Positions 13,168-28,939 of a stretch of 36,141 bases of DNA are shown here, piece after piece; positions within the stretch are counted from its first letter, which is position 1; each line of letters opens with the position of its first letter. Both the position numbers and the translations under genes were made by a program. Below the pieces are notes generated by a model, which saw only the letters and a program-made list of their open reading frames with translations, did not search any database and was not told the origin of the DNA. Origin of the DNA: Chloroflexota bacterium. GTDB taxonomy: Bacteria; Chloroflexota; Dehalococcoidia; DSGV01. The stretch spans positions 1-36,141 of the forward strand of contig JAJYLG010000027.1 of assembly GCA_021787985.1 (NCBI GenBank), in the 5' to 3' direction.

Positions 13168-14436
13168 CTAGGCCGGCGGAATGGCGGGCAGATCCGAGCT
13201 GTACAGCCTCTCCAGGCGCGCGAGCATCCGGGAGAGTGTGAATTCGGCAAGGTACCGTGCCCGCCCCCGGCGGCCCATCTCCTCCGCTCCACTCTTGTCC
13301 GCGAGGACGGCAACCAGCGCTTCAGCCAACGCGTCGGAGTCCGCGGGGGGCACCAACTTCCCGGTCACCCCGTCCACGATCTCCTCGGGAACGCCGGCGA
13401 CGCGGGTTCCCACGACCGGCTTGCCCAGGGCCATCGCCTCGATCACCACGTACGGCAGACTTTCGTAGCCGGTGGACGGCAACGCGACCGCATCGAGCAG
13501 GTACACGATATCGAGCACGTCGCTGCGGTAGCCCGTGAACACGATGGCGTCCCCGACACCCAGCTGGCGCGCCAGGGCCTGCACGGCGCTGCGCCGTTCC
13601 CCTTCTCCGACCAGGAGGACCTTCACCGTGGGGAAGCGCGAGCGGAGCGTGGGGACTGCGCGGACCAGCCACTCCTGCCCCTTCCGCGGCTCGAAGCTCC
13701 CCACGGCGCCTATCGCCACGGTGGCGCTATCGAAGCCGAGCTCCGCCCTCAGGGCCGCTTGGCGCGCGGCAGAAGGGGGCGGAGGGTCGGGGATTCCGTA
13801 CGGGATGACGCCAAGGGACGCGCCGTCGAAACCCCGCACCTCTCGCAGCGACTGCGCCGACGCCTGGGACGCGGCGACGATGGCACGAAGCGAAGCGAAC
13901 ACGCGCCGATCGAGCGAGCGCTCCACTGTCCGGGGGAACGCCAGGGGTTCCGCGAGGTTGTGATACGTCATCACGCACATGGGCAGGCCGACCGCTCGCG
14001 CGGCGATCGCGGCCAGCCGGCAACTCTCTCCTCCAGGGTAGCCACCGTTGTTGATGTGCAGGATGTCTATCCGGCGGTCACGAAGCGCTCGCACGACGAC
14101 CCGCCAGTTCCGGAGGTTCCTCGCCTGTCTGAGCAGGCCCTTCGGTACCGCGCGCCACCGATAGAGGAGCGGGTAGCGCCTGAGCGGCCGCGCCCTCGCG
14201 AGCACACGGCTGGTGGCGGACGAACCCACGCGGAGTTCGGTGACCTCGAACGGTCGGGGCTCCGGGTACTCGTGGAGGTACCTCACGAACGATGGATTCT
14301 CGGCACACAGCACCTGGACATCATAGCGGTCGCGATCGAGGCCGTGGACGACGTCGCGCAGAAAGCGTTCGGCGCCGCCGACCACCCCGACTTCCGTGAA
14401 GAAGGCAAGCCGCGTCCTGGCAGGGTGGGCGCTCAC
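13168..14436 (-). CDS. Glycosyltransferase family 4 (GT-B)
   Basis: A 422-residue retaining glycosyltransferase. The N-terminal Rossmann half opens with RLAFFTEVGVVGGAERFLRD (the GGAE loop is typical). The C-terminal half carries VAIGAVGSFEPRKGQEWLV, VLLVGEGERRSAVQALARQL and the EX7E donor-binding region PSTGYESLPYVVIEAMALGK followed by PVVGTRVAGVPEEIVDG. It acts on the cytosolic face in repeat-unit assembly. GTG 14436 overlaps the previous stop by 4 bases (GTGA), so it is translationally coupled to the 635-residue transferase gene. Confidence 0.87.
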   Translation of the reverse strand: MSAHPARTRLAFFTEVGVVGGAERFLRDVVHGLDRDRYDVQVLCAENPSFVRYLHEYPEPRPFEVTELRVGSSATSRVLARARPLRRYPLLYRWRAVPKGLLRQARNLRNWRVVVRALRDRRIDILHINNGGYPGGESCRLAAIAARAVGLPMCVMTYHNLAEPLAFPRTVERSLDRRVFASLRAIVAASQASAQSLREVRGFDGASLGVIPYGIPDPPPPSAARQAALRAELGFDSATVAIGAVGSFEPRKGQEWLVRAVPTLRSRFPTVKVLLVGEGERRSAVQALARQLGVGDAIVFTGYRSDVLDIVYLLDAVALPSTGYESLPYVVIEAMALGKPVVGTRVAGVPEEIVDGVTGKLVPPADSDALAEALVAVLADKSGAEEMGRRGRARYLAEFTLSRMLARLERLYSSDLPAIPPA

Positions 14437-16340
14437 ACTGCGCCCAAGGCGCGGGAGCGGCCTGCCAGATGATCTTGTCGAAGACCATCGATGAAATCGA
14501 CCACTCGCTCGGCCGATCGGCCATCCGATGGGCCACAGTACGCCGCCACGCGCGAGGCCCGCGGGTCAGGCCCCGACACCGTGAGCGCCCGTACGATGGC
14601 CTCCGCCAGCGACTCGGGGGCGGACACCGTGGGGATCTCGGCGCGGCCGTCCAAGGGGTAGTCCACACCCCACCGGCAGTCGCTGACGACAATCACGCGC
14701 TTTCCCGCCAGCCAGGCCTCCAGCGCCGCGGTACTCACCGGGCTGATGACCAGATCGGACTCCTCGAGGCAACGCTCGAACGGGACGTCCGCCGCAAGCT
14801 CATCCACGCGGTCACCCCACGACGCGAGCAGCTCACGGTAGTAATCCGTCCGCTCCGAGGGGTGGGGGCGCAGAACGCAGCGCAATCGACCAGGCAGCCG
14901 GCGAAGTCCGTCCAGCACGAGCCGGAGATAGCGCTCGGAGATCGTCGAGTCCTTGGCGGCGTTGAAGTTGATGTGCGTCGCCGTGAGCACAAGAGCCGTG
15001 GGGGGCTCGGAGCGGCGACGAGGACGTGGCGTGGCGCCCGATCCGGCGTAGCGATCGAACACCGGGTTTCCTACGACGCGCAGCCGCTGCCTGTCGACCC
15101 CCCACGACGCCAATTGGTCACGCACCGGTTCGCTCCACACGAGCACGTGGTCCGCGGACCGCTTGTCGTCGTCCAACTGGGCGGACACACTCAGACCGTG
15201 CTGCACGACGACTGACGGTATTCCGAGGCTTCTCGCGGCGCAGACCTGCAACCGCGGTCGTTCCGGAGCGTCGAACGGCACGACAACGCAGCTCACGCCG
15301 CCGCGGGTGTACGCCGCCCGGAGGCCGGCCAGCTGCGTCGCCAGACCCGGTATCCGCCCGGCGACATAGGCGTCGAGCACGGGTTCGAGCGCCGGCCGAA
15401 TGTCGGTCCCCCGCAGCATACGGCTGCGCCACCACGCGGCATCCGCGCGCGCCCGCTCCCAGCGGAGCCGTATCGACCGAGCCGCGCCGAGAGCGTCCTC
15501 GCCGCCGTCCGCGGACGTCACGTCCAGCACGCGCGCGCCGGCGCGGAAGTACCTCAGTGCCCTGCCGGGCGATGGTGCGGCTGCAGGGTCGAACCGGATC
15601 GCGTCGCCCAGGCCCCGCGCGCCCCACGCATCGATCACCGGCCCCAGGGCCGGATAGTAGTTGAACAGCACCGTGCCTTGCCGCCGGCCCAGCGCCCACT
15701 CGCTGCGCGATTCGGTCAGGAAGCGCCCGAGGAGTCGGCGCCCCAGTGCCGCAACCTTGCCGCCTCGACGTCCGGCTCGCCGAGCCGACTCCAGCCAGTA
15801 GTGCGCCTCCTTCTGAGACTGCCCGCTCGACGCCACGATCCTCTCGACCGGAACGTCCGCTCCCCGGCTGACGGCCGCCAACCCGTGCCACACCGGCGCG
15901 TCCGGCGCCGCATCGCACAGCACCAGGTCGGGCCGCTCCTCCTGGAGCAGCCGCCGGGAGGCACCCAGTGTCCGCACCAGCGGAAACAGTACCGCGTAGC
16001 TGAGCTCAAACTCCAGGAGGCTGCCCAGCGAGACACCGCAGAGCAGCGTGAAGTCGCCGTCTTCGTCCGCGTGCCAGCTCTGACGCACCGCCTGAACGGC
16101 AGCGTTGGCTTCCGCCACGGCCAGCGCATCCAGCAGGTCATCCAGGAGCACCGCCGGCAACCCGGCGGCGGCCGCCGTCTCGCGGACGAGCCAGCTGTCG
16201 GTGGCTACGGTGCAGGAAGCGGCCGGACCGTAGCGCCGCCGCACTGCCTCCACCGACGCGGCATGCTCGAGTAATGCCACCAGGACACGCCGCGGCCCCG
16301 AGCTCATGCGCGGCGCACCGGGGCGACGCCGGAAAGGCAT
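14433..16340 (-). CDS. Large GT-B-like surface-polysaccharide transferase
   Basis: A 635-residue protein without membrane helices. The C-terminal half (about 360-620) looks like the CDP-glycerol glycerophosphotransferase / UDP-GlcNAc 2-epimerase-like GT-B fold: VVVQHGLSVSAQLDDDKRSA, LVWSEPVRDQLASWGV, LRVVGNPVFDRYAGS, CVLRPHPSERTDYYRELL and ESDLVISPVSTAALEAWLAG. The N-terminal half (about 18-300) is a second nucleotide-fold-like region with no confident match. Such proteins transfer sugars or polyol phosphates in capsule synthesis, and its position next to the CMP-nonulosonate genes makes it a candidate nonulosonate transferase (inference). The ATG at 16340 has GGCGGTGAG just upstream; MSSGPRR at 16307 is an alternative. 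Confidence 0.65.
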   Translation of the reverse strand: MPFRRRPGAPRMSSGPRRVLVALLEHAASVEAVRRRYGPAASCTVATDSWLVRETAAAAGLPAVLLDDLLDALAVAEANAAVQAVRQSWHADEDGDFTLLCGVSLGSLLEFELSYAVLFPLVRTLGASRRLLQEERPDLVLCDAAPDAPVWHGLAAVSRGADVPVERIVASSGQSQKEAHYWLESARRAGRRGGKVAALGRRLLGRFLTESRSEWALGRRQGTVLFNYYPALGPVIDAWGARGLGDAIRFDPAAAPSPGRALRYFRAGARVLDVTSADGGEDALGAARSIRLRWERARADAAWWRSRMLRGTDIRPALEPVLDAYVAGRIPGLATQLAGLRAAYTRGGVSCVVVPFDAPERPRLQVCAARSLGIPSVVVQHGLSVSAQLDDDKRSADHVLVWSEPVRDQLASWGVDRQRLRVVGNPVFDRYAGSGATPRPRRRSEPPTALVLTATHINFNAAKDSTISERYLRLVLDGLRRLPGRLRCVLRPHPSERTDYYRELLASWGDRVDELAADVPFERCLEESDLVISPVSTAALEAWLAGKRVIVVSDCRWGVDYPLDGRAEIPTVSAPESLAEAIVRALTVSGPDPRASRVAAYCGPSDGRSAERVVDFIDGLRQDHLAGRSRALGAV

Positions 16341-16352
16341 CTCACCGCCGCC

Positions 16353-17099
16353 TCAGACCTGAAGCGGGCGTTCGCCAACGATCAGGATGTTGATCGTGCC
16401 GATGTACGAGCCGCCTCCGATGATCACCCGGGCAAGGAGGGCGAGGATGGGACGCACCAGCACCGCCCACGTCAAGAGCCGGGCCCAGGCGGCCACGGTG
16501 CGCGGAGGCGCGGGATTGACGGGAAGCACGCCCACGACCCCGAAGCCTGTCGCAAGCAGCACTTGTCTGGCGCTCTCCGCCGTGAAGATCACTTCGTGCG
16601 TGAAGTCCACGTAGCGGTCACGCGCCCCAAAGATGGACGCCCCGTTCGGCGTCTTCATGATCAAACGACCACCCGGCTTGAGCGCCGCTCGGGCACTGGC
16701 GAGGAAAACGAGCACCTCCGGCTTGGTGAGGTGTTCCACGAAATCGTTCGCCACGATCGCGTCGAGCTCGCCGTGATACACGCCGAGCTGCGCGAGGCCG
16801 TCGCCCAGCCGGACGTTGGTCACACCCATGCGCCGCGACACTTCGAGCATCTGCGGGCTCGAGTCGAATCCCTCGACCCGGCGGTACCCTTCCCTCTCCA
16901 GGAAGTAACAGAACTGGCCGCTGCCGCACCCGACCTCTACGATATGGGCGTCGCGGTCCGCGGGCAGCCACGGCCCGTGCGTCGCCCGATAGAAAGCGCG
17001 CAGGTCCTCGAAGGCGGCCGGGTCCGCCAACCCCTGGTAGTAGTGCGGTGACGCCTCGACGTACGCATCGTAGATGCGCTGACGATAGTCTGCCGTCAC
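16353..17099 (-). CDS. Class I SAM-dependent methyltransferase
   Basis: A 248-residue protein. Motif I is HIVEVGCGSGQFCYFLE (about 52-68). The acidic motif after strand 2 is VEGFDSSPQML, and DAIVANDFVEHL represents motif II. A post-motif LKPGGRLIMKTPNG completes the Methyltransf_11/23 pattern. A hydrophobic C-terminal segment (WARLLTWAVLVRPILALLAR) suggests membrane contact. It would O- or N-methylate a sugar or lipid-linked intermediate; the target is unknown. The GTG at 17099 follows GGAGCGGACG. About 39 bases separate it from the preceding cytidylyltransferase. Confidence 0.8.
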   Translation of the reverse strand: MTADYRQRIYDAYVEASPHYYQGLADPAAFEDLRAFYRATHGPWLPADRDAHIVEVGCGSGQFCYFLEREGYRRVEGFDSSPQMLEVSRRMGVTNVRLGDGLAQLGVYHGELDAIVANDFVEHLTKPEVLVFLASARAALKPGGRLIMKTPNGASIFGARDRYVDFTHEVIFTAESARQVLLATGFGVVGVLPVNPAPPRTVAAWARLLTWAVLVRPILALLARVIIGGGSYIGTINILIVGERPLQV

Positions 17100-17138: not shown

Positions 17139-17912
17139 CTAACCCCCACGCTGCGCGCGCGCAGCCACCAGCTGCACGTACCATTCGTTTCGCACCAGCC
17201 CGCCGTTGATCGAGGCCATCGCAGGTTGCCGCTCCAGCAGCTCGAGCACGTCCTCCATCCCGAACCCGGGCTTGGTCGCGTACAGCGCCTCATAGACCCC
17301 GCGCACGAACTCCAGGTCGGCCGGATAGTCCACGGTCCAACGCAGGCTGGACAGGTCCACGTCACAGCGCAGCACACCGATACGGAATCGGTCCGGCTGC
17401 TCCCAGAGAAACGGCGTCACGTGTTCCCGATGCGCCGGCTCCACCGCCTCCCGCCAGGCCGTCGCAAGAGCTTCGGCGGAGAACACCTCCGTATCGAGTC
17501 CGTCCGGGAACGAAGGAGGCACGGCGTTGCTGACGTACGCGTACGGCTCGGGGCCGTCGAGGAAGAGCCGCACCGTGCGGTCAGTGACCTGCGGATCGAG
17601 CAGCGGGCAGTCCGCCGTGAAGCGCACCACGGTTTCAGCGCGCGCAAAGAGGGCGGCCTGGTAGTACCGGTCGAGGACGTCCTGCTCACTCCCGCGGAAC
17701 ACCGGTACGCCAAGGCGGCGGCAGAGATCCGCCACCGGCGTATCCCGCTCGGACGTGGTCGTCGCAACGACGACCTCGCCGATCGCGGTGCAGCGGGCGA
17801 TCCGTTCCAGCTGAAGGTCCAGCAGCGGTCGCCCAAGGACAGGCATGAGCACCTTGTTCGGCAGGCGCGTGGAGCCGGTTCGCGCTTGTACGATGGCAAC
17901 GACCCTACTCAC
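17139..17912 (-). CDS. CMP-nonulosonate synthetase-like cytidylyltransferase (SpsF family)
   Basis: A 257-residue nucleotidyltransferase. The N-terminus VVAIVQARTGSTRLPNKVLM contains the RxGSxRLPxK signature of acylneuraminate/KDO cytidylyltransferases, followed by GEVVVATTTSERDTPVADLC, RFTADCPLLDPQVTD (metal-binding Asp) and RWTVDYPADLEFV. SpsF-like and PseF/NeuA enzymes charge an acidic sugar with CMP, fitting the adjacent synthase. I take GTG 17912, which overlaps the upstream stop (GTGAGTAG) and has AAGGGG about 10 bases upstream; ATG 17933 is an alternative adding seven residues. Confidence 0.82.
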   Translation of the reverse strand: MSRVVAIVQARTGSTRLPNKVLMPVLGRPLLDLQLERIARCTAIGEVVVATTTSERDTPVADLCRRLGVPVFRGSEQDVLDRYYQAALFARAETVVRFTADCPLLDPQVTDRTVRLFLDGPEPYAYVSNAVPPSFPDGLDTEVFSAEALATAWREAVEPAHREHVTPFLWEQPDRFRIGVLRCDVDLSSLRWTVDYPADLEFVRGVYEALYATKPGFGMEDVLELLERQPAMASINGGLVRNEWYVQLVAARAQRGG

Positions 17913-19179
17913 TTCGCCGCGGCCCCTTCGCATAGTGGACGAGGACGCGCCGGACCGCTCGGGCCACCTGCGCCACATCCGCCTCGGTCATCCGCGGCTG
18001 CAGGGGGAGCGAGAAGGTCCGGTCCGAGATGAACTCCGCCCGGGGGAACTGGCCGCGGCGGAAGCCGTACTTCTCGCGGTAGTACTTGTGCATCGGCACC
18101 GCGCGGTAGTGCACCCCGATGCCGATGTTCTCCCTGGTGACGGCCTCCATCACCTCGTCACGGCCGACGGTCAGCGCTTCGGGCCTGACCATCACCGGGT
18201 ACAGGTGCCAGGCATGGCGATCGTCCTGTTCCTCCACCTCCGGCAGCAACAGCGTATCGAGGTCGCCAAGGAGGTCGTGCATCATCCGCGCGTACCGCGT
18301 GCGGATCTCGATGAACTCGTCGAGGCGCTTGAGTTGATGAATCCCGATGGCCGACGCGAGGTCGGTCAGGTTGTATTTGTAGCCGGGGTAGACGACCTCG
18401 TAGTGCTTGTTCCCGTGCTTGGAGTAGCGCTGCCACGCGCCCAGATCCATGCCGTGCAGGCTCATGATCCGCGCCCGCTCGTCCGCGTCGGCCTGCCGGC
18501 ACACCAGGGCTCCGCCCTCGCCGGTGGCCACGTTCTTCGTGACGTAGAAACTGAAGCACGTGAAGTCGCTCAACGTGCCGATCTTGCGCCGGTGGTACTC
18601 CGTGCCGAGCGCGTGGGCGGCATCCTCGATGAGGACGACCCCGTGCCGCTCGGCGAGCGGCGCGATCACGTCCATGCGACACGGCAGACCGGCGAAGTGC
18701 ACGACGATGATCGCCTTCGTGCGCGGCGTCAGGCACGCCTCGATCGCCGCGGGATCGACGTTGTACGAATCCGCGGCCGCGTCGGCGAACACCGGCCGCG
18801 CGCCGACGTGCTCCACGACGTTCACGGTGGCCGCAAACGTCATCGCGGGGACGATCACCTCGTCCCCAGGGCCGACGCCGGCCGACAGCAGGGCCAGATG
18901 GAGCGCCGCGGTGCACGAATTGAGGCCGAGCACGTGCTCGACGCCCAGATAGCGGCCAAGGTCCTGCTCGAACTGCCTGGTGCGGGGGCCGGTGCTGAGC
19001 CAGCCGGAGCGGAGCGTCGCGACCACCTCCGCGATCTCCTCGTCTCCGATGAGGGGCTGCCCGAAAATGAGGAACTCGTCCCGAACCGGTTTGCCGCCCG
19101 CGACCGCCGGGCGATCCACGTCGGCGTGTCGCGGCTCGCCCGCCCGCTCACCCCTCACCTTCTTGTCCGTTTTCATCAT
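17905..19179 (-). CDS. pseC: DegT/DnrJ/EryC1 sugar aminotransferase (PseC-like)
   Basis: A 424-residue PLP enzyme of the DegT/AHBA-synthase class. Conserved segments are STGPRTRQFEQDLGRYLGV, LNSCTAALHLALLSAGVGPG, IEDAAHALGTEYHRRKIGTL and FSFYVTKNVATGEGG, whose Lys (about residue 214) forms the Schiff base. YKYNLTDLASAIGIHQL and GIGVHYRAVPMHKYYREKYG complete the family pattern. In pseudaminic-acid synthesis PseC aminates UDP-4-keto-6-deoxy-AltNAc at C4. The PseC assignment rests on its neighbours (PseG/PseH fusion, NeuB); related enzymes (WecE, ArnB, LegC) look similar. ATG 19179 overlaps the previous stop; a second ATG follows immediately. The about 30-residue N-terminal extension is poorly conserved. 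Confidence 0.8.
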   Translation of the reverse strand: MMKTDKKVRGERAGEPRHADVDRPAVAGGKPVRDEFLIFGQPLIGDEEIAEVVATLRSGWLSTGPRTRQFEQDLGRYLGVEHVLGLNSCTAALHLALLSAGVGPGDEVIVPAMTFAATVNVVEHVGARPVFADAAADSYNVDPAAIEACLTPRTKAIIVVHFAGLPCRMDVIAPLAERHGVVLIEDAAHALGTEYHRRKIGTLSDFTCFSFYVTKNVATGEGGALVCRQADADERARIMSLHGMDLGAWQRYSKHGNKHYEVVYPGYKYNLTDLASAIGIHQLKRLDEFIEIRTRYARMMHDLLGDLDTLLLPEVEEQDDRHAWHLYPVMVRPEALTVGRDEVMEAVTRENIGIGVHYRAVPMHKYYREKYGFRRGQFPRAEFISDRTFSLPLQPRMTEADVAQVARAVRRVLVHYAKGPRRSE

Positions 19180-20909
19180 CCCCTGTCGTCCGTGTCCAGG
19201 CGTCCGGAAGCTGGTTCGTCAAACCATTTATGATACCACAGACGCACCGACTCCGTCCGAAAACCGCACTTCTGGTACAGGCGCTGCGCGCCCGCATTGC
19301 GACCCTGCGTGACCACCTGTGCGACCGGGAGGTCCTGCTCCGCGAACCACTTCAGCGCCCGCCCCACGAGCGCGGACCCGACCCGTCGGCCCTGGTACCC
19401 CTCGCGCACCGCGATCAGGCCGATCACGCCTCGGGAGACCCCCACCCGGTCGCAGGCGATGAAGCCCGCCACGCGGCCGTCCAGCTCCACGACGAACACG
19501 CGCCCCGACGGCCCCCGATGCAGGCCCTCCACCCACTGCGCGTAGAGCTCCCGCGATCGCTCCCGGGGGAACCGATCATCGAAGAAGAACCGGCTGTCGG
19601 TGAATGCGGTAGCCGCCAGCGCCCTCAGCTCCGGCAGGTCCTCACCGCGACTCGGACGCGTGGGCGGGTCACCCGGCGCCGGCTCCGCAGCGGCCGGGAC
19701 GAGCCGCGACAGCGTGACACGGGCGTCCGCCAGACGGTAGCCGTGCTCCTCCGCCAGACGGATGGAGCGGGGTGAGCCGAAGTCGGCCAAGTAGTACAGG
19801 CACCGGATGCCCTCCTCCCTCGCCCACCGGTCCGCCAACGCCAGGAGGTCCTCGGTGACACTGTACGGTGTCACCCGCCCCACGCGGATGCCGAAGAACT
19901 GCGAGTCCCACGGCAGGGGGCGCACCACACTCAACAGCTCCGCCGTGCGGCGCAGCCCTTCCCCATCCACTGCGGCGCGACCGGCAGCGCTCAGCTCCCT
20001 GCGGGCGGCGGCGGAGCCCAAGAGCCGGCCCACTTCCACGCGCACGGCACCCCGCGGCAGCTTCGCGCCCAACCCGAGCGACACCACCGCCCCCCCACGT
20101 GCCAGTCCTCCGGCCGCCGCGACCTGGTGCTCGTACTGAGCCACCACCACGGTCGGGAGTCCGCCCGCCGCGCACTCGAACATGGTCAGGCCGCCCGCGA
20201 CAACCGCCAAGTCGGCCTCGCGCAGCAGGGGGCGCACGTCGGGGACGTCAACATGCAACCGGACCCGCCCATCGCTCGCGCCGGCAATGCGCTCCAGCTC
20301 CGCCTGCTCGGGGTGGCCCGCGCCGGCAACCACGTCCACGTCCAGTGGAGGCTCGAGGCCTTCGAGCTCCTTGAGACACCGCACCAGGAGGCGAGCGTCG
20401 TCGTGCCCGCCGACCGACAGGAACACCCGCCGGGCGCGCTCCGCGATCACCCGGGCAGGGGCCGGCGCGGGCCGGAACACGGCGTAGTCGGCCCCGCCGT
20501 GAATGGAGCGGTCCGCGTCTATGACGGGATTGATGCAGAGATCCGCGGGCCCCGCATCGTCCAGGGAATTGTCGACCAGGGCGACCAGCACTCCCGTCGC
20601 CTTCACTCGCTCCACGTACTCGCGGCCCACCCCCAAACGATCGACGACCACGAGATCCGGGCGGACCGCGGCGACGGCAGCGCAGGTGGGCCGCGCATCG
20701 CCGTCGTCCTCCGCTATGGGGATGATCTCGAATCCGCGCGCGGTGGCGCGCGCGATGGTCGCGGCGTCTCCCCTGACCGCAAACGCGCAACGGCCACCGA
20801 GTGTGTCCCGAAGGTACTCCGCCAGCAGCAGGTCACGGACGAGGTGCCCGGTGCCGACTTCGGGCTCCGCTCCGGCGTCACAGCGGAACAGGACGACGCG
20901 CTGCCCCAC
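19176..20909 (-). CDS. PseG-PseH fusion: UDP-sugar hydrolase plus GNAT N-acetyltransferase
   Basis: A 577-residue two-domain protein. Residues about 1-320 are PseG/MurG-like: VVLFRCDAGAEPEVGTGHLV, LVVVDRLGVGREYV, VFLSVGGHDDARLLVRCL and LAVVAGGLTMFECAAGGLPT. PseG removes UDP from the 2,4-diacetamido sugar. Residues about 328-577 are WecD/PseH-type GNAT: PLPWDSQFFGIRVGRV, then an acetyl-CoA loop REGYQGRRVGSALV (near 505) and RNAGAQRLYQKCGFRTES. The GNAT N-acetylates the 4-amino group. In characterised bacteria these are usually separate genes, or fused in other arrangements. There is one continuous frame with no internal stop. GTG 20909 follows the neuB stop by five bases. The C-terminus overlaps pseC by four. 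Confidence 0.82.
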   Translation of the reverse strand: MGQRVVLFRCDAGAEPEVGTGHLVRDLLLAEYLRDTLGGRCAFAVRGDAATIARATARGFEIIPIAEDDGDARPTCAAVAAVRPDLVVVDRLGVGREYVERVKATGVLVALVDNSLDDAGPADLCINPVIDADRSIHGGADYAVFRPAPAPARVIAERARRVFLSVGGHDDARLLVRCLKELEGLEPPLDVDVVAGAGHPEQAELERIAGASDGRVRLHVDVPDVRPLLREADLAVVAGGLTMFECAAGGLPTVVVAQYEHQVAAAGGLARGGAVVSLGLGAKLPRGAVRVEVGRLLGSAAARRELSAAGRAAVDGEGLRRTAELLSVVRPLPWDSQFFGIRVGRVTPYSVTEDLLALADRWAREEGIRCLYYLADFGSPRSIRLAEEHGYRLADARVTLSRLVPAAAEPAPGDPPTRPSRGEDLPELRALAATAFTDSRFFFDDRFPRERSRELYAQWVEGLHRGPSGRVFVVELDGRVAGFIACDRVGVSRGVIGLIAVREGYQGRRVGSALVGRALKWFAEQDLPVAQVVTQGRNAGAQRLYQKCGFRTESVRLWYHKWFDEPASGRLDTDDRG

Positions 20910-20914
20910 CGGCG

Positions 20915-21760
20915 CTAGCGAGTTGCGCGGCGATACTGCAGGGTCGAGCGCTCCGCCTCAAAGGTCTGGAACCGGCCGGATCCGAGCATCTTCTCCACCT
21001 GCCGGACCCGTGCGACGAGCTCTCGCAGGTCCGCCGGGTCGGCCGACAGCGCATGGTCGGGACCCGGCGCACTCTTGTCGAGCGTGAAGTGCTTCTCCAG
21101 AGCCACCGCCCCCATGGCGACCGCGGCAGGAGCGGCCTGTACGCCGATGGTGTGATCCGAATACCCGATCGGCCACTGATACCGCGCCCTCAGTGCTTCG
21201 ATGACCCTCAGGTTCGCCTGCTCCGGAGGCGTGGGATACGCCGATACGCAGTGGAGGATGACGCACGGGCACCCCTGCGCCTCCAGGATCTCCAGCGCCG
21301 CATCCAACTCCTCCTGGCTCGCCATGCCCCGGGACATGATCACCGGCAGCCGGTGAGCCGCGACCGTCCGCAACAGCCGGTGGTTGACGACATCGAACGA
21401 GGCGATCTTGAAGGCCGGCACCCCCAGCTTCGCCAATTCCTCCACGCTGGTGTCGTCGAACGGGGTCGAGAACGCGGCGATCCCCAGGTGCCGCGCCTCC
21501 GCGATCACCTCGCCTTGCTGGCTCGCCGACAGCTCCGCCGCCTTCAGGACCCCATAGATGGGACTGTCCTTTGCGACCCTTGCCTCCGTGCGGTATGTCT
21601 GCAGCTTGATGGCACTCGCCCCCGCGCGCGCCGCCTCGGACGCCAGCGTGCACGCGGTGCGCAGGTCGCCGCCGTGATTGATGCCGAGCTCGGCAACGAC
21701 GTAGGTGCGCTGTCCGTCACCGACGACCGTCCGGTCGACGGTCACGCTTCTCCGGTTCAC
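20915..21760 (-). CDS. NeuB/PseI-family nonulosonate synthase lacking the SAF domain
   Basis: A 281-residue TIM-barrel enzyme condensing a 6-carbon amino sugar with phosphoenolpyruvate. Family motifs: VVAELGINHGGDLRTACTLA, GASAIKLQTYRTEA, FSTPFDDTSVEELAKLGVPA, FKIASFDVVNHRLL, LHCVSAYPTPPEQANLRVIE, IGYSDHTIG and EKHFTLDKSAPGPDHALSAD. The usual STGMAT is SRGMAS here. Ordinary NeuB/PseI/LegI have about 330-350 residues, ending in an antifreeze-like SAF domain that contributes an arginine to the partner active site. This protein stops after FEAERSTLQYRRATR, where SAF would begin, and no SAF sequence follows in any frame before the next gene. GTG 21760 has GGAGG upstream and overlaps the preceding stop (GTGA). 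Confidence 0.85.
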   Translation of the reverse strand: MNRRSVTVDRTVVGDGQRTYVVAELGINHGGDLRTACTLASEAARAGASAIKLQTYRTEARVAKDSPIYGVLKAAELSASQQGEVIAEARHLGIAAFSTPFDDTSVEELAKLGVPAFKIASFDVVNHRLLRTVAAHRLPVIMSRGMASQEELDAALEILEAQGCPCVILHCVSAYPTPPEQANLRVIEALRARYQWPIGYSDHTIGVQAAPAAVAMGAVALEKHFTLDKSAPGPDHALSADPADLRELVARVRQVEKMLGSGRFQTFEAERSTLQYRRATR

Positions 21761-22761
21761 AACACCCTCCACAGCCGTGTTTGGAATCCCCTTGCAGGCT
21801 CGATCAAGACTGAGCAACGCGCACCTCCTTCTCTCCAAATCAGGAGGTCTGCAAGCGTCACGCGCTCCCCCGTTAGGACATCAACAACTTGGAGCCCTCG
21901 GATCATACGAAGACGGTCTTGCCCCGATAGGCGCGTCGGACGACCCGCCGCGTCCATTGATTCGCGAACGCGACTCAAGACATACCCACTCTCTGCGCTC
22001 GGCTTCGGAAGGCCATCCGAGAGGTCCTTGCGCACGAAGAAGGCGTTGACTCCCGCACTGTTCGATCCCACGAAATCGTACCCCTTCTTCGCGCCGAGTG
22101 TCCACAGCGCAGACAGCGAGGCGCCAAAGTAGAGGTTGGAGTGGTGGGCTCTCGTCCTCTCGAAGCGAGGGTCGTAGCGGATAGTGACCGCTCGCTGCGC
22201 GCCGAATACGCTGTTGTATTCGCAGATGACGATGCGCGGGCTGATGACATCGATGGCTTCCCAGACCCAGTAGTCATTGCCGTCGATGTCAATGCTGAGC
22301 ACGCCAATGTCGCCGCTGATCCCAGCGCTGGCGATGATGGCATTGATATTCTCCCTTGTCACGAACTGGCAGACCGATGTCAGGTCGTACTTCACCGACA
22401 TCTCGTCACGATTGATCACATCGAAGTTGCTCTGACTCGAATCAATTATCAAGCCGCGCCAATTGTCGTTAAGCAAGAGCAACTTGGTATTCGACTCCCG
22501 GTACTTCTCGACCCCGAACTCGACGAATACATCATTGGCGATTGGGATTCGACTGATGAGATACTGGATGATGCCGTCCTCCCCCCACTGCGAGAACACC
22601 CTGAACTCCATCTCGGTGATCGATGTGACGTCTCTGCGCTCAAGGTTGCGCTCGATGAGAAGGCGCGCCAAGAGAAGCGAGTTGACCTCCACTCGGTCTG
22701 CCAAGTGACCGACTGCGAAGCTTCGCAGTCGCCTTAGTGCCCACCTTGCGAGGGATGTCAT
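21757..22761 (-). CDS. FkbM-like (putative methyltransferase) protein
   Basis: A 334-residue protein of a family often met in polysaccharide clusters. Its core begins FRVFSQWGEDGIIQYLISRI and has FVEFGVEKYRESNTKLLLLN (a degenerate SAM-binding motif I), then WRGLIIDSSQSNFDVI, GVLSIDIDGNDYWVWEAIDV, IVICEYNSVFGAQRAV and GSNSAGVNAFFVRKDL. The IDIDGND segment resembles the FkbM methyltransferase signature. Its substrate is unknown; O-methylation of a sugar is the obvious guess. ATG 22761 overlaps the previous stop (ATGA). The gene is visibly lower in GC than its neighbours, suggesting separate acquisition. Confidence 0.65.
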   Translation of the reverse strand: MTSLARWALRRLRSFAVGHLADRVEVNSLLLARLLIERNLERRDVTSITEMEFRVFSQWGEDGIIQYLISRIPIANDVFVEFGVEKYRESNTKLLLLNDNWRGLIIDSSQSNFDVINRDEMSVKYDLTSVCQFVTRENINAIIASAGISGDIGVLSIDIDGNDYWVWEAIDVISPRIVICEYNSVFGAQRAVTIRYDPRFERTRAHHSNLYFGASLSALWTLGAKKGYDFVGSNSAGVNAFFVRKDLSDGLPKPSAESGYVLSRVRESMDAAGRPTRLSGQDRLRMIRGLQVVDVLTGERVTLADLLIWREGGARCSVLIEPARGFQTRLWRVL

Positions 22762-23576
22762 GACCGCGCAGTTGACCCGCGTACTTGATGGACAAGTGAC
22801 CGCAATCGCGCCAGCATGTCCAGCAACACGCCCGGGTGATGATAGTACTCGATCGTGACGAACCCCAGACCGGGACACTCCCGCACGATCCGGCCGGCGG
22901 TCGTCCAGTCGCCGGGCGTCAATGCCTCATGAGCGTCCTCATAATCGAGCGTGCCGCGGTAGATCCCGCTCAGATGGATCTGCCCCACCCTCTCCAAAGG
23001 GAGCGCCCCCACGTAGTCGTGGAGGGACACCTTCGCGTACCACGCCGTGATCTCGGCGTGCCCGACGTCCAGCAGCAGCCCCACGCCGGCATTCTCCATG
23101 AGCCGGCTCAGGAAGCGCGGCTCTCCGACGATCTCGTAGGCGCCGGTCGGGAAGCAGTTGTTGTTCTCGATGAGATACGTTCGTTTGCCGGCCGCGGCCC
23201 GCACCCGCGCCATGTTGGCCGCGGCATTGGCGAGCATCGCCGGCTCGCTCATCGGGACGCCCGTGGGAACGAACCTCCGCCCTACAATTGCCGGCCTGAC
23301 GTACGGCGAATGCACATGGAATGAGACGACGCGCGGCTGGTGCGATGCGATCATCGCTGCGACCATGGCGACGTCGGCATCGCCCCACGGCTCCACGAGG
23401 CTCAGCTCGCAGTGATAGAGCCGTGGCAGCTTCGACGCGATCAAAGCGCAAGCGTGATCCCGCACCTCTAATGCGTCCGACAGCTCCAGTATCCGTTCCG
23501 CTTCCGCGCGCGTTGCCGCGTTGAACAGCGTTGACTGCGGCGTGGCGATTCCGACGTTCACGAGTGACGCCCGCAA
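22758..23576 (-). CDS. DUF692/MNIO-like TIM-barrel protein
   Basis: A 272-residue protein with the metal-ligand pattern of the DUF692 (multinuclear non-heme iron oxidase; MbnB, TglH) family and related xylose-isomerase-like barrels. Candidate ligands are FHVHSP (near 88), YLIENNN (near 134), GEPRFLSRLMENAGVGLLLD followed by VGHAEITAWY (150-180), VGQIHLSGIY (near 197), DYEDAHEAL and VTIEYYHH (near 240). MNIOs characterised so far modify cysteine-containing peptides; no precursor peptide is visible here. The sugar-operon setting suggests a small-molecule substrate (inference). TTG 23576 follows the previous stop directly; GTG 23561 is an equally possible start. A plain sugar-phosphate isomerase is the main alternative. 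Confidence 0.6.
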   Translation of the reverse strand: MRASLVNVGIATPQSTLFNAATRAEAERILELSDALEVRDHACALIASKLPRLYHCELSLVEPWGDADVAMVAAMIASHQPRVVSFHVHSPYVRPAIVGRRFVPTGVPMSEPAMLANAAANMARVRAAAGKRTYLIENNNCFPTGAYEIVGEPRFLSRLMENAGVGLLLDVGHAEITAWYAKVSLHDYVGALPLERVGQIHLSGIYRGTLDYEDAHEALTPGDWTTAGRIVRECPGLGFVTIEYYHHPGVLLDMLARLRSLVHQVRGSTARS

Positions 23577-24893
23577 TCAGTTGAGCCGGGTGAATCCCTG
23601 CATCGCCACCGGCCCCTTCAGCCGCTTACGGATGGTTTTCGTGCGAATGGCTTCGCGCAGCACCGCGAAGACCTGATCCAGTGCGCGGCCATACGTCCTG
23701 ACGTGCGCGTCGGTGTGCGCGCCGCTCGCGTAGAAGCCGTCGGTGGCGAGGATTCCCCGATCGAGCATCTCCTGGACGAACAGGGTCTTCAGCGCCTGGG
23801 GCTCGGGCCCGGGGAACGCGAAGGCGAGCAGCGGCGCCACCCCGTGGGCATGGATCTCGATGCCGTGCTTCTCCCCCGCGTCGAGCCACACCTTCTTGAC
23901 GCTCTCCCCGATGCGCGCGAGATGCCTATGCAGCTTCACGCGCTTCATCTTCGCGATGGTGGCGAGGGTGGCGACCGGTCCGATGCGGTCCGTCCAGTAG
24001 GTACTCGAGATGAAGGTCTGCTGCGCAGCATCCATCACGTCGCGGCGCCCGATTATGGCAGCCATGGGGTACCCGTTGCTCATGGCCTTGGCGAACACCG
24101 CCATGTCGGGCTGCATGCCGTACAGCAGATGCGCGCCGCCGAGCGTCAGGCGAAAGCCCATCGTGATCTCATCGAACACGAAGACCGCGCCGCTCTTCCT
24201 GGCGAGCGCCTGCACCGACTTCAGGAAGCCGCGCTTCGGCTCCTCGCCGTGGACCGGCTCCATGATGACGGCCGCGAGCCTGGGATGCTTCCTGACGATG
24301 GCCTCAAGCTCCTCGATGTGATTGTAGCGAAACGGCAGAATCGTGCCGCGAAGCCCCTTGGGCACGCCCCTGGGCTCGAGCCCCTTCAGCAGGTGCTCCG
24401 CCAGCGCGTCCTTCTTCTGCAAATTCGTGGCGAGATACCAGTCCGCCCAGCCGTGATACCCGCAGAACGCGATGACATCCCGTCCGGTGTGCGCGCGTGC
24501 GATGCGCGCCGCTATCGCCATGGCCTCCCCGCCCGTCCGGGCATAACGCACCATCTGGGCCCATGGATGCAGTCGGCACAGGACCTCCGCGAGCTCCACT
24601 TCCTCGGGGGCGTTGAGCGTCGCCATCGAGCCGCGATTGACCGCCTCGATCACCGCGCGGTTTACGTCGGGGTCCGCGTAGCCGAGAATGCAGGCACCCA
24701 CGCCCATGATGGACATATCGAGGTACCTCGTTCCGTCGAGGTCCCAGATGTACGCCCCCTGCGCCTTAGAGTAGTAGGACGGCCAATGGTCGGGCAGGAA
24801 CCGTTCGGCCCGCTTCGAAAGCAGCTGAGCGCCGCCAGGTATCACCTTCTTCGCCCTCTTCCACAGCTTCGGACCCGTATTGCTCATGGTCAC
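23577..24893 (-). CDS. Class III aminotransferase (glutamate-1-semialdehyde aminotransferase-like)
   Basis: A 438-residue PLP enzyme of the class III family. It has VIPGGAQLLSKRAERFLPDH at the N-terminus, YIWDLDGTRYLDMSIMGVGA, VRYARTGGEAMAIAARIARA, AFCGYHGWADWYLATN, VFVFDEITMGFRLTLGGAHL and VFAKAMSNGYPMAAI, with the Schiff-base Lys near residue 267. The real GSA aminomutase works in heme synthesis; this copy sits in a nonulosonate operon and ends with an unusual extension (KTIRKRLKGPVAMQGFTRLN), so it is more likely a sugar aminotransferase (inference). GTG 24893 has GAGGG eight bases upstream; ATG 24887 is the alternative. It lies 58 bases after the SDR gene. Confidence 0.8.
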   Translation of the reverse strand: MTMSNTGPKLWKRAKKVIPGGAQLLSKRAERFLPDHWPSYYSKAQGAYIWDLDGTRYLDMSIMGVGACILGYADPDVNRAVIEAVNRGSMATLNAPEEVELAEVLCRLHPWAQMVRYARTGGEAMAIAARIARAHTGRDVIAFCGYHGWADWYLATNLQKKDALAEHLLKGLEPRGVPKGLRGTILPFRYNHIEELEAIVRKHPRLAAVIMEPVHGEEPKRGFLKSVQALARKSGAVFVFDEITMGFRLTLGGAHLLYGMQPDMAVFAKAMSNGYPMAAIIGRRDVMDAAQQTFISSTYWTDRIGPVATLATIAKMKRVKLHRHLARIGESVKKVWLDAGEKHGIEIHAHGVAPLLAFAFPGPEPQALKTLFVQEMLDRGILATDGFYASGAHTDAHVRTYGRALDQVFAVLREAIRTKTIRKRLKGPVAMQGFTRLN

Positions 24894-24951: not shown

Positions 24952-25737
24952 CTACCAACTGGTGAAGCCGCCGTCCACGATCAGGTTCTGGCCGGTGACG
25001 TAGCGTGCGGCATCCGAGGCCAAAAACATCAGTGCTCCAGCCAGGTCGGACTCGCGCGCCATGCGCCCCATAGGCGTGCGCCAGGCGTAGTTCTCAACGA
25101 AGGCGGGAGCCTGTGCGTTGAAGACACCTCCCGGACTGATGCAGTTGACTCGAATCTGGTGTGGCGCCAGGTAGGCGGCGAGATACCTCGTGAAGGCGAT
25201 CACCCCCCCCTTGGTGAACGCATAGACCTCCGAGCTGTTGCGCCCCGAGTCCGCATAGATCCGCTGGTCCGCCGCAACGACACCATAGATCGAGCCGATG
25301 TTCACGATCACGCCGGAGTGCTGCCGCACCATCGGCCGCGCCGCCGACTGGGCACAGTGAAGCACGCCGAGCATGTTCACGTTCACCACCCGGCCAAACT
25401 CCTCGTCGGTCCGGCGCTCGAAGGGAGTGAAGACCGCGATCCCGGCGTTGTTCACCAGAATGTCCACCCGCCCTTCGCGACGAGTTACGTCCGCGAACAG
25501 ACGGTCAACCGACCGTCGACTGGTGACGTTGACCTTGGCTCCTCTCGCGCGACGACCGAGAGCGCCGGCGGTCCGAACCGCTGCCCGTCCGTCGAGGTCC
25601 GCCGCGACAACCCTGGCACCAGCGTCGATCAGGGCACGGCAGAACTCACGACCGAGCTGACCAGCCGCACCGGTCACGACCGCGACCCGGCCATCGAGAT
25701 CGAAGAGGCTCAGACTACCACGCTTGCGCTTTCGCAT
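24952..25737 (-). CDS. Classical SDR oxidoreductase, PtmA-like
   Basis: A 261-residue short-chain dehydrogenase. The cofactor motif is VAVVTGAAGQLGREFCRALI (about 17-36). ILVNNAGIAV lies near 95. The catalytic NIGSIYGV with YAFTKGGVIAFTRYLA gives Ser, Tyr (near 170) and Lys (near 174). VNCISPGGVF and YVTGQNLIVDGGFTSW end the protein. SDRs of this look (PtmA in Campylobacter legionaminate clusters) accompany NeuB-type genes; their exact step is not certain to me. ATG 25737 begins just before the conserved fold. Longer in-frame extension is possible but would start near the promoter at 25802-25829. It is the first gene of this operon segment. Confidence 0.82.
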   Translation of the reverse strand: MRKRKRGSLSLFDLDGRVAVVTGAAGQLGREFCRALIDAGARVVAADLDGRAAVRTAGALGRRARGAKVNVTSRRSVDRLFADVTRREGRVDILVNNAGIAVFTPFERRTDEEFGRVVNVNMLGVLHCAQSAARPMVRQHSGVIVNIGSIYGVVAADQRIYADSGRNSSEVYAFTKGGVIAFTRYLAAYLAPHQIRVNCISPGGVFNAQAPAFVENYAWRTPMGRMARESDLAGALMFLASDAARYVTGQNLIVDGGFTSW

Positions 25738-25801
25738 GTGGGTTGCCCGCCGCTCACCGATTGGCCAAGGTGAACTAATGGTCGCCGCCATGGTGCTCCC
25801 G

Positions 25802-25829
25802 AACCTACGCCGCCGCACGGCTCGGTCAA
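25802..25829 (-). promoter_or_regulatory. Sigma70-like promoter of the nonulosonate operon
   Basis: On the minus strand TTGACC (25829-25824), a 16-base spacer and TAGGTT (25807-25802) lie 65 bases before the SDR start. The strong -35 and the GC-tolerant TAGGTT -10 resemble housekeeping promoters of GC-rich bacteria. It would let the segment from 25.7 kb leftward be expressed despite the IS3 insertion farther upstream. Confidence 0.55.
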
Positions 25830-25968: not shown

Positions 25969-26020
25969 CTTGCCAGGTTTCCATCCTCGAGCCCGGGGAC
26001 TGGAAACCTCACTCGGCAAG
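25969..26020. repeat. Long bulged hairpin
   Basis: CTTGCC plus AGGTTTCC (25969-25982) pairs with GGAAACCT (26002-26009) and, after a 5-base bulge, GGCAAG (26015-26020): 14 pairs with a 19-base loop containing CTCGAG. It lies between the IS3 element and the nonulosonate promoter. It could be a regulator site, a remnant of another element end or an old terminator. The rest of 25830-26126 shows no gene. Confidence 0.45.
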
Positions 26021-26179
26021 AAGATCCGAAGCGCTTCCCACCGGAGTCAAGCCACCCCTCCACCGCACGCCCATGGGCAGCGCTTCCCGATCCTTGTCCG
26101 CCCAAATCACGATCGGCGAGCGCGAGTGGAGTTGGCCCGCTTCCGTGGACACCTCACCCTTTGGGGGAAGGAGTCCACG

Positions 26180-26494
26180 ATGGGGCGAACACAGAAGCCG
26201 TACCGGGCTGAGTTTCGGGAGCAGATGGTGGCCTTGGTCCGGGCTGGTCGGACGCCGGAAGAACTGGCTCGGGAGTTTGAGCCTTCGGGGCAGACGATTC
26301 GGAACTGGGTGGAGCAGGCTGCAGCTGACCGTGGGGAGCGTCCGGGGCAGCTGACGAGCGCCGAGCTGGAGGAACTGACGCGGCTGCGGCGGGAGCTCCA
26401 CCAGGTGAAGCTGGAGCGGGAGATTCTCTCAAAAGCGGCGGCCTGGTTCGCACGGGAGACCGGCACGATTCCCAGCAGGTCTAGGGGTTCGTGA
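26180..26494 (+). CDS. IS3-family transposase OrfA
   Basis: A 104-residue protein with the helix-turn-helix of IS3 OrfA (YRAEFREQMVALVRAGRTPE followed by ELAREFEPSGQTIRNWVEQA) and a coiled-coil tail (LTRLRRELHQVKLEREILSK, then AAAWFARETG). GGGGGAAGGAG precedes ATG 26180. Its stop overlaps the GTG of orfB (GTGA). An active OrfAB fusion is usually made by -1 frameshifting; I see no perfect A6G-type slippery site, only CAAAAGC near 26431, so coupled translation is also possible. Confidence 0.88.
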   Translation: MGRTQKPYRAEFREQMVALVRAGRTPEELAREFEPSGQTIRNWVEQAAADRGERPGQLTSAELEELTRLRRELHQVKLEREILSKAAAWFARETGTIPSRSRGS

Positions 26495-27342
26495 GGGATC
26501 ACCAGGCCGTGTACCCGGTCGCGACCGTGTGTCGCGTGCTTCGGGTCTCTCCGAGTGGGTTCTACGCGTGGCGGAAGCGGACCACGGCTTCGCCCCGCGC
26601 GCAGCGGGACGCTGTCTTGGCGGTGCAGGTCCGGGCCTTCCACGCGCGCTCGCAGGGGACGTACGGGGCGCCGCGGATTCACGAGGATCTGCGGGAGGCC
26701 GGTGAGCGGGTGAGCCGCAAGCGGGTGGCGCGGCCGATGCACCAAGCCGGGCCGGTGGGGGTGAGCCGTCGCAAGGGCGTGCGCACCACGCGCCGGGCCG
26801 TCGACGGCCAGAGTGCGCCCCATCTGGTGCAGCGAGACTTCACCGCGACCGCGCCCAATCGGCTCTGGATGGCCGACATCACCTACGTGCCCACCTGGGC
26901 CAGGTTCCTGTACCTGGCCATCGTCTTGGACGCCTTCAGCCGGCGGATCGTCGGCTGGGCGATGGGGCCGGACCTGCGGACGCAGCTCGCCCTGAACGCC
27001 CTCGAAATGGCGCTCACGCAGCGGCGGCTGGCAAGCGTGATTCATCACTCCGATCACGGCTGCCCGTACACGGCGCTGGCCTTCGGGCACCGGTGCCGGG
27101 AGATGGGCTTCCGCCCCTCGATGGGCACCGTCGGGGACGCCTACGACAACGCGCTGGCCGAGAGCTTCTTCGCGACACTGGAATGCGAACTCCTTGACCG
27201 CCGCAGCTTCCCGTCGCAGACCGAGGTCCGGCTGGCCATCTTCCAGTTCATCGAGGGCCGGTACAACCCGCACCGCCGGCACTCGGCGCTCGGCCAACGG
27301 TCCCCGATCAACTACGAACGCCTGATGTCAGAGGCGGCTTGA
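26491..27342 (+). CDS. IS3-family transposase OrfB
   Basis: A 283-residue DDE integrase-type transposase. The N-terminal HTH_21-like part has YPVATVCRVLRVSPSGFYAW and HARSQGTYGAPRIHEDLRE. The rve core carries the DDE triad: MADITYVPT (Asp near 129), IHHSDHGCPYT (Asp near 187) and DAYDNALAESFFATLE (Glu near 224), followed by FIEGRYNPHRRHSALGQRSP. All catalytic residues and the normal C-terminus are present, so with OrfA the element may still be active. It is translated from GTG 26491 or as an OrfAB fusion. Confidence 0.9.
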   Translation: MRDHQAVYPVATVCRVLRVSPSGFYAWRKRTTASPRAQRDAVLAVQVRAFHARSQGTYGAPRIHEDLREAGERVSRKRVARPMHQAGPVGVSRRKGVRTTRRAVDGQSAPHLVQRDFTATAPNRLWMADITYVPTWARFLYLAIVLDAFSRRIVGWAMGPDLRTQLALNALEMALTQRRLASVIHHSDHGCPYTALAFGHRCREMGFRPSMGTVGDAYDNALAESFFATLECELLDRRSFPSQTEVRLAIFQFIEGRYNPHRRHSALGQRSPINYERLMSEAA

Positions 27343-27544: not shown

Positions 27545-28939
27545 CTAACCGTCGCCAGGTGCGGCGGTGACCCCGGGTCCCGCCGCCACCGAGCTACGGG
27601 TCGGGGTTTGGAGCTTTGCGACGCCAAGCCCTGAGCCGAGCAGAGCGAAGAACACCACCGACAACCGCGGTTCCTGAAAGACCGAGTTGGAAATCGAGAA
27701 GATGGCCACTTGAATCATCAGACAGTAGAGTGTCGCCCTTGCCAGCAGCGATGCGACAGTCTCCGGACCGCCGCTCCCCACGATAAGGAACCGCGCAGAT
27801 TTCCACAGTAACCAGAGAAAAAGCCCCGTTCCGATCAGACCGACTGAGAATAGCATGATCGCGAGGGAATTGTCTGTGGGAATTCGCTGGAGCGACCTAG
27901 TCGCGAGCAGGAGTGCTTCTCGCGTCCCGTAGGCATCGGCGAGATACTCAGGACTGCCGATGCCAAAGCCGACCAACACGCGTTTCCCTTCCAGGTTTTG
28001 CACCGCAGCGACCAACAGGTCCCAGCGGCCGCGTGCTGACAGTGCGGTGGGGTCCACGTAGGCAACCTTGCGGAAGCTCCTGGTCAGGAACGGCAGACCC
28101 AGCAGGACAAGCGCTAACGACGCCAACACGAACAGGCCTCGGCTCTTCTTGCCCGCAAGAAAGGCGGCAGCCACGACGCTGAACCAGGCGGTGCGGGCGA
28201 CAGTGAACACCGATGCAAAGAGCACCAACAGCAGAGTGAGGTCCCAGAGCCGGCTGCGCACCCTCCCACGTAGCATCAGCAGGAACGGCAGGAGGATTGT
28301 CAACGCAAGCCCGAGGTAGATGCTGTGTTCGTAGGTAGACTCTACGCGAAGAATCCCGCCTCGCCTCGCCAACCCCACTCCTCCTGCCGTCGCCGTAAAG
28401 GCCTGCACGTCCAGTCGCGACGCTTCGCGAATGATGGCGAGGTTGTTGAACCGTGTTCCGGTCGCCGCTTCCCAGAGGGCGATCGCTGCGACCAAGAGAG
28501 CTCCAACGCACAAGCCACGTAGGACGAACACGAAGTCCTCCTCGGTTCGAACCAGCGTGTAGGCGATCCACAGTAGAATGGCGCCGCCGACAATTCTCTC
28601 GGAGAAGATGATCTTCAAGTTGTACTGGGGACTCACGGCCAATGGAGTCGTTACGAGCAGATAGAGGATGAAGAGCAAGAAGTACCAAGCCGCGGGCGGT
28701 ACTCCCCGGCGAGCGACTGCGGCGAACAGCCGATTGACGCCGTAGCCCAATAGGAAGCCGGCGAGTACGGCTCGCGGGACCGTGAGGATCGGGAGCGGCA
28801 AATCCGACGGAGCGCGGAAACCCACAGTTGTTGGAATCACAAAGTAGCTGACCACGACAACCCGAAGGGCTCCCAGAGGCGACGCGGCGGCATACGCGGC
28901 GGATAGAGCGAAGACTATGACGATGACGGCGAAGAACAT
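27545..28939 (-). CDS. wzy: Wzy-like polysaccharide polymerase / O-antigen ligase family protein
   Basis: A 464-residue polytopic inner-membrane protein with about 11-12 hydrophobic helices and a large loop around 160-215 and 290-345, the usual Wzy_C/O-antigen ligase plan. The loop includes GGILRVESTYEHSIYLGLAL, and later come GRWDLLVAAVQNLEGKRVLV with GFGIGSPEYLADAYGTREAL and TDNSLAIMLFSVGLIGTGLF. Wzy polymerises lipid-linked repeats in the periplasm with Wzz. Polymerase versus ligase cannot be separated by sequence alone; its place in the cluster favours Wzy. Its GC content looks lower than the flanking genes, as is common for Wzy. ATG 28939 is 18 bases past the previous stop, without a strong ribosome binding site. 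Confidence 0.8.
   Translation of the reverse strand: MFFAVIVIVFALSAAYAAASPLGALRVVVVSYFVIPTTVGFRAPSDLPLPILTVPRAVLAGFLLGYGVNRLFAAVARRGVPPAAWYFLLFILYLLVTTPLAVSPQYNLKIIFSERIVGGAILLWIAYTLVRTEEDFVFVLRGLCVGALLVAAIALWEAATGTRFNNLAIIREASRLDVQAFTATAGGVGLARRGGILRVESTYEHSIYLGLALTILLPFLLMLRGRVRSRLWDLTLLLVLFASVFTVARTAWFSVVAAAFLAGKKSRGLFVLASLALVLLGLPFLTRSFRKVAYVDPTALSARGRWDLLVAAVQNLEGKRVLVGFGIGSPEYLADAYGTREALLLATRSLQRIPTDNSLAIMLFSVGLIGTGLFLWLLWKSARFLIVGSGGPETVASLLARATLYCLMIQVAIFSISNSVFQEPRLSVVFFALLGSGLGVAKLQTPTRSSVAAGPGVTAAPGDG

Follow-up and report, generated by a model that had tools for sequence, protein, structure and literature searches.

A distinct MNIO/DUF692 clade in nonulosonic-acid operons: a candidate sugar-acting enzyme with a predicted metal site of the endonuclease IV pattern

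What does an enzyme of the MNIO/DUF692 superfamily do when its gene is part of an operon for a sialic-acid-like sugar? The gene that raises this question is on the minus strand of a stretch of 36,141 nucleotides from a Chloroflexota bacterium (hereafter the window, meaning the whole stretch analysed). In the literature covered, the characterised MNIOs all act on RiPP precursors (PMC12452194, PMC10214503, PMC13419390), and most of them need a partner protein (PMC13419390). A survey of the MNIO landscape treated every cluster as a RiPP cluster, mentioned no sugar, polysaccharide or glycosyl genes, and also contained some MNIOs without an evident precursor (PMC12452194). A preliminary description of the locus had suggested an iron-dependent sugar-modifying enzyme, a use of the fold that its author did not know to be described. 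Our literature searches that combined DUF692 or MNIO with terms for sugars gave nothing relevant either, and a non-RiPP use in sugar operons is likely, even if not proven, to be new within the literature covered, which did not include most subscription titles.

The open reading frame (22758-23576) has 272 codons (272 aa) when it is counted from a TTG at 23576. This start is doubtful and a GTG five codons later (23561-23559) appears the likelier one, because the N-termini of the homologues start there (MKPKIATP... versus MNVGIATP...). The six motifs listed in the preliminary description (ENNN, GEPRFL, LLLDVGHAE, IHLSG, DAHE and IEYYHH) are all present in the order given, and the translational coupling that it proposed is visible on both sides: the stop codon of the class III aminotransferase gene abuts the TTG, and the stop codon of the MNIO gene overlaps the next ATG as ATGA. 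No other PF05114 gene was found in the genome (3.5 Mb). The composition of the window fits that of its own genome, with a mean tetranucleotide r of about 0.83-0.85 (12 stretches compared) and 0.83 among stretches of the genome themselves, hence a binning error is unlikely. Single-protein scans of genome-contig and viral-contig collections gave no match to the window protein, nor did phage records, and plasmid records gave only weak, partial DUF692 matches.

The protein belongs to the DUF692/MNIO superfamily, as had been claimed. It matched PF05114, the profile named for the RiPP enzymes MbnB, TglH and ChrH, with 56.9 bits (E 2.5e-15, gathering cut-off 25), and all eight clade members scanned were above the gathering score, the seven others at 32-57 bits. 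The preliminary description had asked whether a sugar-isomerase profile would fit better; none did, since PF01261 (AP_endonuc_2) gave no match to the window protein at E values up to 1, and the best AP_endonuc_2 score among clade members was 23.9 bits (G692 copy), below the cut-off of 31.1. The clade also scores far below the cut-offs of the NCBIfam equivalogs for RiPP enzymes of the superfamily (BufB, HvfB, ApyH, ChrH and MbnB): the best score of the window protein was 51 bits against a cut-off of 310, and scores of other clade members were 16-72 bits against cut-offs of 310-600. For most clade members scanned, ApyH was the closest characterised model. An AlphaFold2 model obtained from a 60-sequence alignment (pLDDT 94.1, pTM 0.92) has the TIM-barrel fold of the superfamily and is nearest to solved MNIOs. 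Precisely, the top nine PDB chains in Foldseek were all MNIOs (MbnB, TglH and 3bww; E 6e-13 to 2e-10, TM-score 0.64-0.67), followed by endonuclease IV (E 4e-9) and then by D-allulose 3-epimerase (E 1e-8).

The genes around it are listed in Table 1 in the order in which they are transcribed, with gaps of 58 bp or less. A nonulosonic-acid (NulO) setting had been proposed, and it is borne out by the presence of NeuB, a PseC-like DegT aminotransferase, a PseG-like protein fused to a GNAT domain and a cytidylyltransferase in a single operon. The description of the next gene as FkbM-like stands as a loose resemblance, its PF05050 score being below the cut-off; its plasmid homologues (48-51% identity) are in polysaccharide or unrelated loci with no listed MNIO.

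Table 1. Predicted genes of the operon, with positions in the window and the evidence for each assignment
Predicted product	Position	Strand	Evidence
SDR oxidoreductase, at the start of the conserved block	24952..25818	-	PF13561 176.6 bits
Class III aminotransferase, glutamate-1-semialdehyde aminomutase (GSA) type	23577..24893	-	PF00202 158 bits; NF004856 265 bits, under cut-off
MNIO/DUF692-superfamily protein	22758..23576	-	PF05114 56.9 bits; ligand columns; AF2 pLDDT 94; Foldseek to MNIOs
Surface-polysaccharide-associated protein, weakly FkbM-like	21757..22743	-	PF05050 12.9 bits, under cut-off 22.7
Short NeuB-family nonulosonic acid synthase lacking the SAF domain	20915..21838	-	PF03102 253 bits; no SAF match
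PseG-like UDP-sugar hydrolase fused to GNAT (WecD-like) acetyltransferase	19176..20909	-	TIGR03590 113.7 bits, NF008212 87.8 bits, both under cut-off
PseC-like DegT aminotransferase	17905..19179	-	PF01041 416.7 bits; TIGR03588 332 bits, under cut-off
Cytidylyltransferase, CMP-sugar synthetase type	17139..17978	-	PF02348 99.8 bits
SAM methyltransferase, downstream in the operon	16353..17099	-	PF13489 54 bits
Surface-carbohydrate glycosyltransferase-like (BFO_1060 / TIGR04396 type)	14433..16340	-	57 and 52 bits, under cut-offs

NeuB, the PseC-like aminotransferase, the PseG-like hydrolase, GNAT and the cytidylyltransferase are also those of the canonical pseudaminic, legionaminic and neuraminic acid clusters. 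Unlike these, the window has in addition the MNIO-superfamily enzyme and the GSA-type class III aminotransferase, and its NeuB lacks the SAF domain, as in G692 and G878. Two transposase-related regions were seen in the window. Between the SDR gene of the operon and an O-antigen-polymerase-like gene (27545-28939) there are two overlapping plus-strand frames (25970-27342) that by eye resemble an IS3-type transposase pair; elsewhere, a single minus-strand frame (8927-9937) has a match to a Mutator-family transposase followed by one to an RmlD domain, which looks like the remnant of a transposase adjoining a dTDP-rhamnose gene.

Relatives were sought in other genomes, a survey of neuB neighbourhoods having been suggested in the preliminary description. 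Among 400 Chloroflexota genomes the closer relatives were only partial matches with identity of 37% or less, and none adjoins NeuB. When genome contigs were scanned with a profile, 80 loci came out, two of which are in NeuB/PseC clusters. One is L064 (G400, Omnitrophota), with four-base overlaps between the MNIO gene and each of the genes for NeuB and the cytidylyltransferase; the other is L054 (G401), from a MAG labelled Parcubacteria. A profile made from the window, L064 and L054 proteins was then applied to the phyla of L064 and L054 (334 and 287 genomes). Profile searches in these two phyla, Omnitrophota and probably Patescibacteria, covered about 670 genomes. On score alone this three-protein profile recovered G478, G421, G692, G576 and G878. 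In G421, G478, G692 and G878 neuB is adjacent or one gene away, and G576, cut off where its contig ends, has a PseC-like gene directly beside the copy. A cluster profile later recovered G1026, of the same class as G878 and 39.6% identical to the window protein, with a cluster of SDR, NeuB, MNIO, cytidylyltransferase and aminotransferase genes.

Hence, there are eight relatives, seven in NeuB clusters and one (G576) beside a PseC-like gene, and six of them (G421, G478, G692, G878, G576, G1026) were found by score regardless of their neighbours. The probability that the copies of G421, G478, G692 and G878 all lie within 2 kb of neuB by chance is roughly 5e-9, by rough arithmetic from NeuB counts and genome sizes with the genomes treated as independent. 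The link with NulO operons is no one-off, then: it recurs in other phyla and within one monophyletic clade. Omnitrophota homologues in NeuB clusters are those of G400, G421, G478 and G692. The set of SDR, NeuB, MNIO and class III aminotransferase recurs in the genome of the window (G000), G692, G878 and G1026, the last three having SDRs 40-54% identical to that of the window together with homologues of its aminotransferase. NulO clusters with the aminotransferase and no MNIO occur in Pseudosulfitobacter and Methylomagnum, thus the enzyme is not required in every such pathway and is rather an addition to some. On the Methylomagnum plasmid (L185, 7059-12064) a class III aminotransferase, an SDR and a short NeuB stand beside a split transketolase, with no MNIO, and this looks like a related sugar-acid pathway.

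The 1.2 Mb MAG labelled Parcubacteria (G401; L054, L174) has 12 NeuB matches over many contigs. Two Omnitrophota contigs gave weak matches to the clade profile in giant frames of 21,496 (G450:C16, L145) and 2,768 codons (G606:C43, L142). About 8 kb from the MNIO of G878 there is an ordinary AP_endonuc_2 protein (L173, 1255-2085; 97 bits), so both barrel types are found in one polysaccharide region.

In a tree of 110 relatives, which included seven of the eight NulO-linked proteins (G1026 was found later), these and the window protein form one branch (SH-aLRT 99). The branch is nested in a larger group that is marked by the signature LDxAHA and separate from the canonical MNIOs. Within the branch, the window protein groups with G878, G692 and G576 (SH-aLRT 99), a subclade that has the SDR and the class III aminotransferase in common; in the other subclade, radical-SAM genes are present in G478, G421 and G401.

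The predicted metal-ligand positions were located in an alignment of 60 relatives. In the window protein these positions are H55, H87, E137, D170, H173, H201, D214, H216 and E243, a nine-residue set common to almost all LDxAHA proteins. As far as the alignment goes, the ligands of iron sites 1 and 2 of MNIOs (two His; Glu, Asp, His and Glu) correspond to H55, H87, E137, D170, H201 and E243. An early indication that a site-1 histidine had been lost (SLVE aligned to SLHG) was dropped, as in the 60-sequence alignment H55 is that residue. Site 3 is different: D214 and H216 are kept, but H173 stands in the column in which solved MNIOs have Asn (we equated HvfB N175 with this column through alignment order). 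In HvfB, a change of any of the site-3 residues N175, D242 and H244 abolishes activity, and mutation of the Asn also hinders the active mixed-valent state (PMC13419390).

With the ligands of E. coli Nfo, in contrast, the correspondence appears complete. We located these at H69, H109, E145, D179, H182, H216, D229, H231 and E261. An hhalign alignment over residues 70-233 (probability 91.5) pairs E137, D170, H173, H201, D214 and H216 with six of them, and the remaining three pairs were assigned by order and motif, outside this alignment. Judged in this way, His173 is the residue that completes the endonuclease IV set of nine residue types, D-x-x-H and D-x-H included. The likeness does not amount to membership: structural similarity to endonuclease IV is lower than to MNIOs, the AP_endonuc_2 profile is not matched, and the genes have no DNA-repair context. 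The set is also not uniform within the clade, as two or more site-1/site-2 positions are altered in L054 and L064 and one in each of L169 and L170; in this other subclade the site-1 histidines are replaced by Asp or Glu in L054 and L064 and partly so in L169 and L170, and L064 has Gln in place of H201. The chemistry may thus vary within the clade.

Two groups of more distant proteins deserve mention. LDxAHA relatives from Bacillota (L105, L108, L110 and L070; Halobacillus and kin) have Ser for the histidine of D-x-H. Relatives from Anaerolineaceae outside NulO loci (L052, L053 and L057) have the same nine ligands, adjoin by eye an aspartate-semialdehyde dehydrogenase gene and have no RiPP look, and their neighbourhoods could possibly represent another non-peptide use of the fold.

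Since MNIO-like proteins are encoded in sialic-acid-like sugar operons of three phyla, the family probably also acts on sugars, and we hold a sugar role for this enzyme to be highly probable. Precisely, we propose, with about an even chance of being right, that it is a dedicated enzyme of a non-canonical NulO pathway, from a distinct MNIO/DUF692 clade with a site of the endonuclease IV pattern and probably oxygen-independent sugar chemistry. As a stand-alone enzyme it would have a small sugar, and not a peptide, as its substrate, either the one that is joined to phosphoenolpyruvate by NeuB or the product of NeuB. The TIM barrel would hold three metals, with H55 and H87 at site 1, E137 as a bridge, D170, H201 and E243 at site 2, and H173, D214 and H216 at site 3. 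The chemistry would most likely be of the Lewis-acid type, e.g. isomerisation, epimerisation or hydrolysis of the sugar, the kind of reaction being a guess. In the window-type subclade the enzyme would share its pathway with the SDR, the class III aminotransferase, GNAT, NeuB and the cytidylyltransferase, a set of neighbours that suggests an extra amino group on the sugar. The oxygen-independent version of the sugar role could go either way. More tentatively, this branch of the MNIOs may have left peptide modification, or may predate it, to carry out with its endonuclease IV-like three-metal site an O2-independent step on a NulO sugar in mostly anaerobic bacteria. Against our reading we count that the solved structures nearest to the model are iron oxidases, closer than endonuclease IV or the epimerases.

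This last point leads to the idea of the preliminary description, i.e. a true MNIO that would use mixed-valent iron and O2 for an oxidative change of the NulO sugar or of its precursor, e.g. at the carbon that carries the additional amino group. In fact, the positions of the iron ligands of solved MNIOs are, by alignment, all occupied in the window protein, both site-1 histidines included, and its best structural matches are MbnB, TglH and 3bww. Haem-copper (COX1) and cytochrome bd oxidases, sought in eight host genomes, are both encoded in that of the window, hence oxygen would be available to this copy. The seven other hosts tested had neither; these are small, possibly incomplete MAGs, thus the absence is not firm. 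Together with the His for Asn exchange at site 3, at a position whose mutation kills the activity of HvfB (PMC13419390), this weakens the case for MNIO-type iron oxidation. Furthermore, no partner protein was seen nearby: the 25 most frequent Pfam families in 58 neighbour genes include no DUF2063/PME or RRE partner, although a rare family could escape such a count. We consider a true MNIO unlikely. The earlier view is then partly supported, as the family, the occupied ligand positions and the recurrent NulO link are upheld.

An ordinary xylose-isomerase-type sugar isomerase or epimerase with one metal, misfiled as DUF692, was also considered. D-tagatose and D-allulose 3-epimerases act on sugars, share the barrel fold and have a core site of Glu-Asp-His-Glu; we take E137, D170, H201 and E243 of the window protein to be equivalent to this single metal site. 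Ketose 3-epimerases follow in Foldseek at about 1e-8, compared with 1e-13 to 1e-10 for the MNIOs, and the G692 copy shows the AP_endonuc_2 score given above. The window protein, on the contrary, matches PF05114 and not AP_endonuc_2, its top nine structural matches are MNIOs, and the additional ligands of a multinuclear site (H55, H87, H173, D214 and H216), which do not belong to the mononuclear site of the epimerases, are in the alignment all kept, which makes this explanation very improbable.

Replacement of PseG, with the enzyme hydrolysing the UDP-sugar and giving NeuB the free sugar, would agree with the lack of a full-length PseG match in G400, G421, G576, G692 and G878, and sites of the endonuclease IV type do hydrolyse phosphodiesters. 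Four genomes nevertheless have both the enzyme and PseG-like matches (99-124 bits), namely G401, G478, G1026 (on one contig) and G000 (in one operon), so that a simple replacement is hardly to be expected.

The preliminary description had noted that no precursor peptide is visible, and we saw none: the operon of the window leaves no room for a small Cys-rich ORF, none was found in any of the NulO operons of the clade, and the Cys-rich frames of the window (26.8-28.6 kb) are not part of the operon but of the region with the transposase and polymerase genes. Even though characterised MNIOs act on RiPP precursors and the survey contained precursor-less ones (PMC12452194), a peptide- or protein-modifying MNIO that is in a sugar operon by chance, perhaps with a distant precursor, is the least credible explanation, given the monophyletic and recurrently NeuB-linked clade, the operons devoid of such ORFs and the low equivalog scores.

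In the literature searched, MNIOs are treated, and mined, as RiPP enzymes. With a monophyletic clade that is fixed in NulO operons in three phyla, the superfamily would extend to small-molecule sugar chemistry, and caution would be needed before any PF05114 gene is annotated as a RiPP maturase. The clade is also relevant to the relation between the MNIO centre and endonuclease IV, as these relatives keep the His of endonuclease IV where solved RiPP MNIOs have Asn. If the oxygen-independent sugar reading is true, this would be the first case in which the MNIO fold serves a substrate other than a peptide and does so without O2 chemistry. For the uncultured bacteria that carry it, the enzyme points to an undescribed step, and probably to an undescribed nonulosonic acid.
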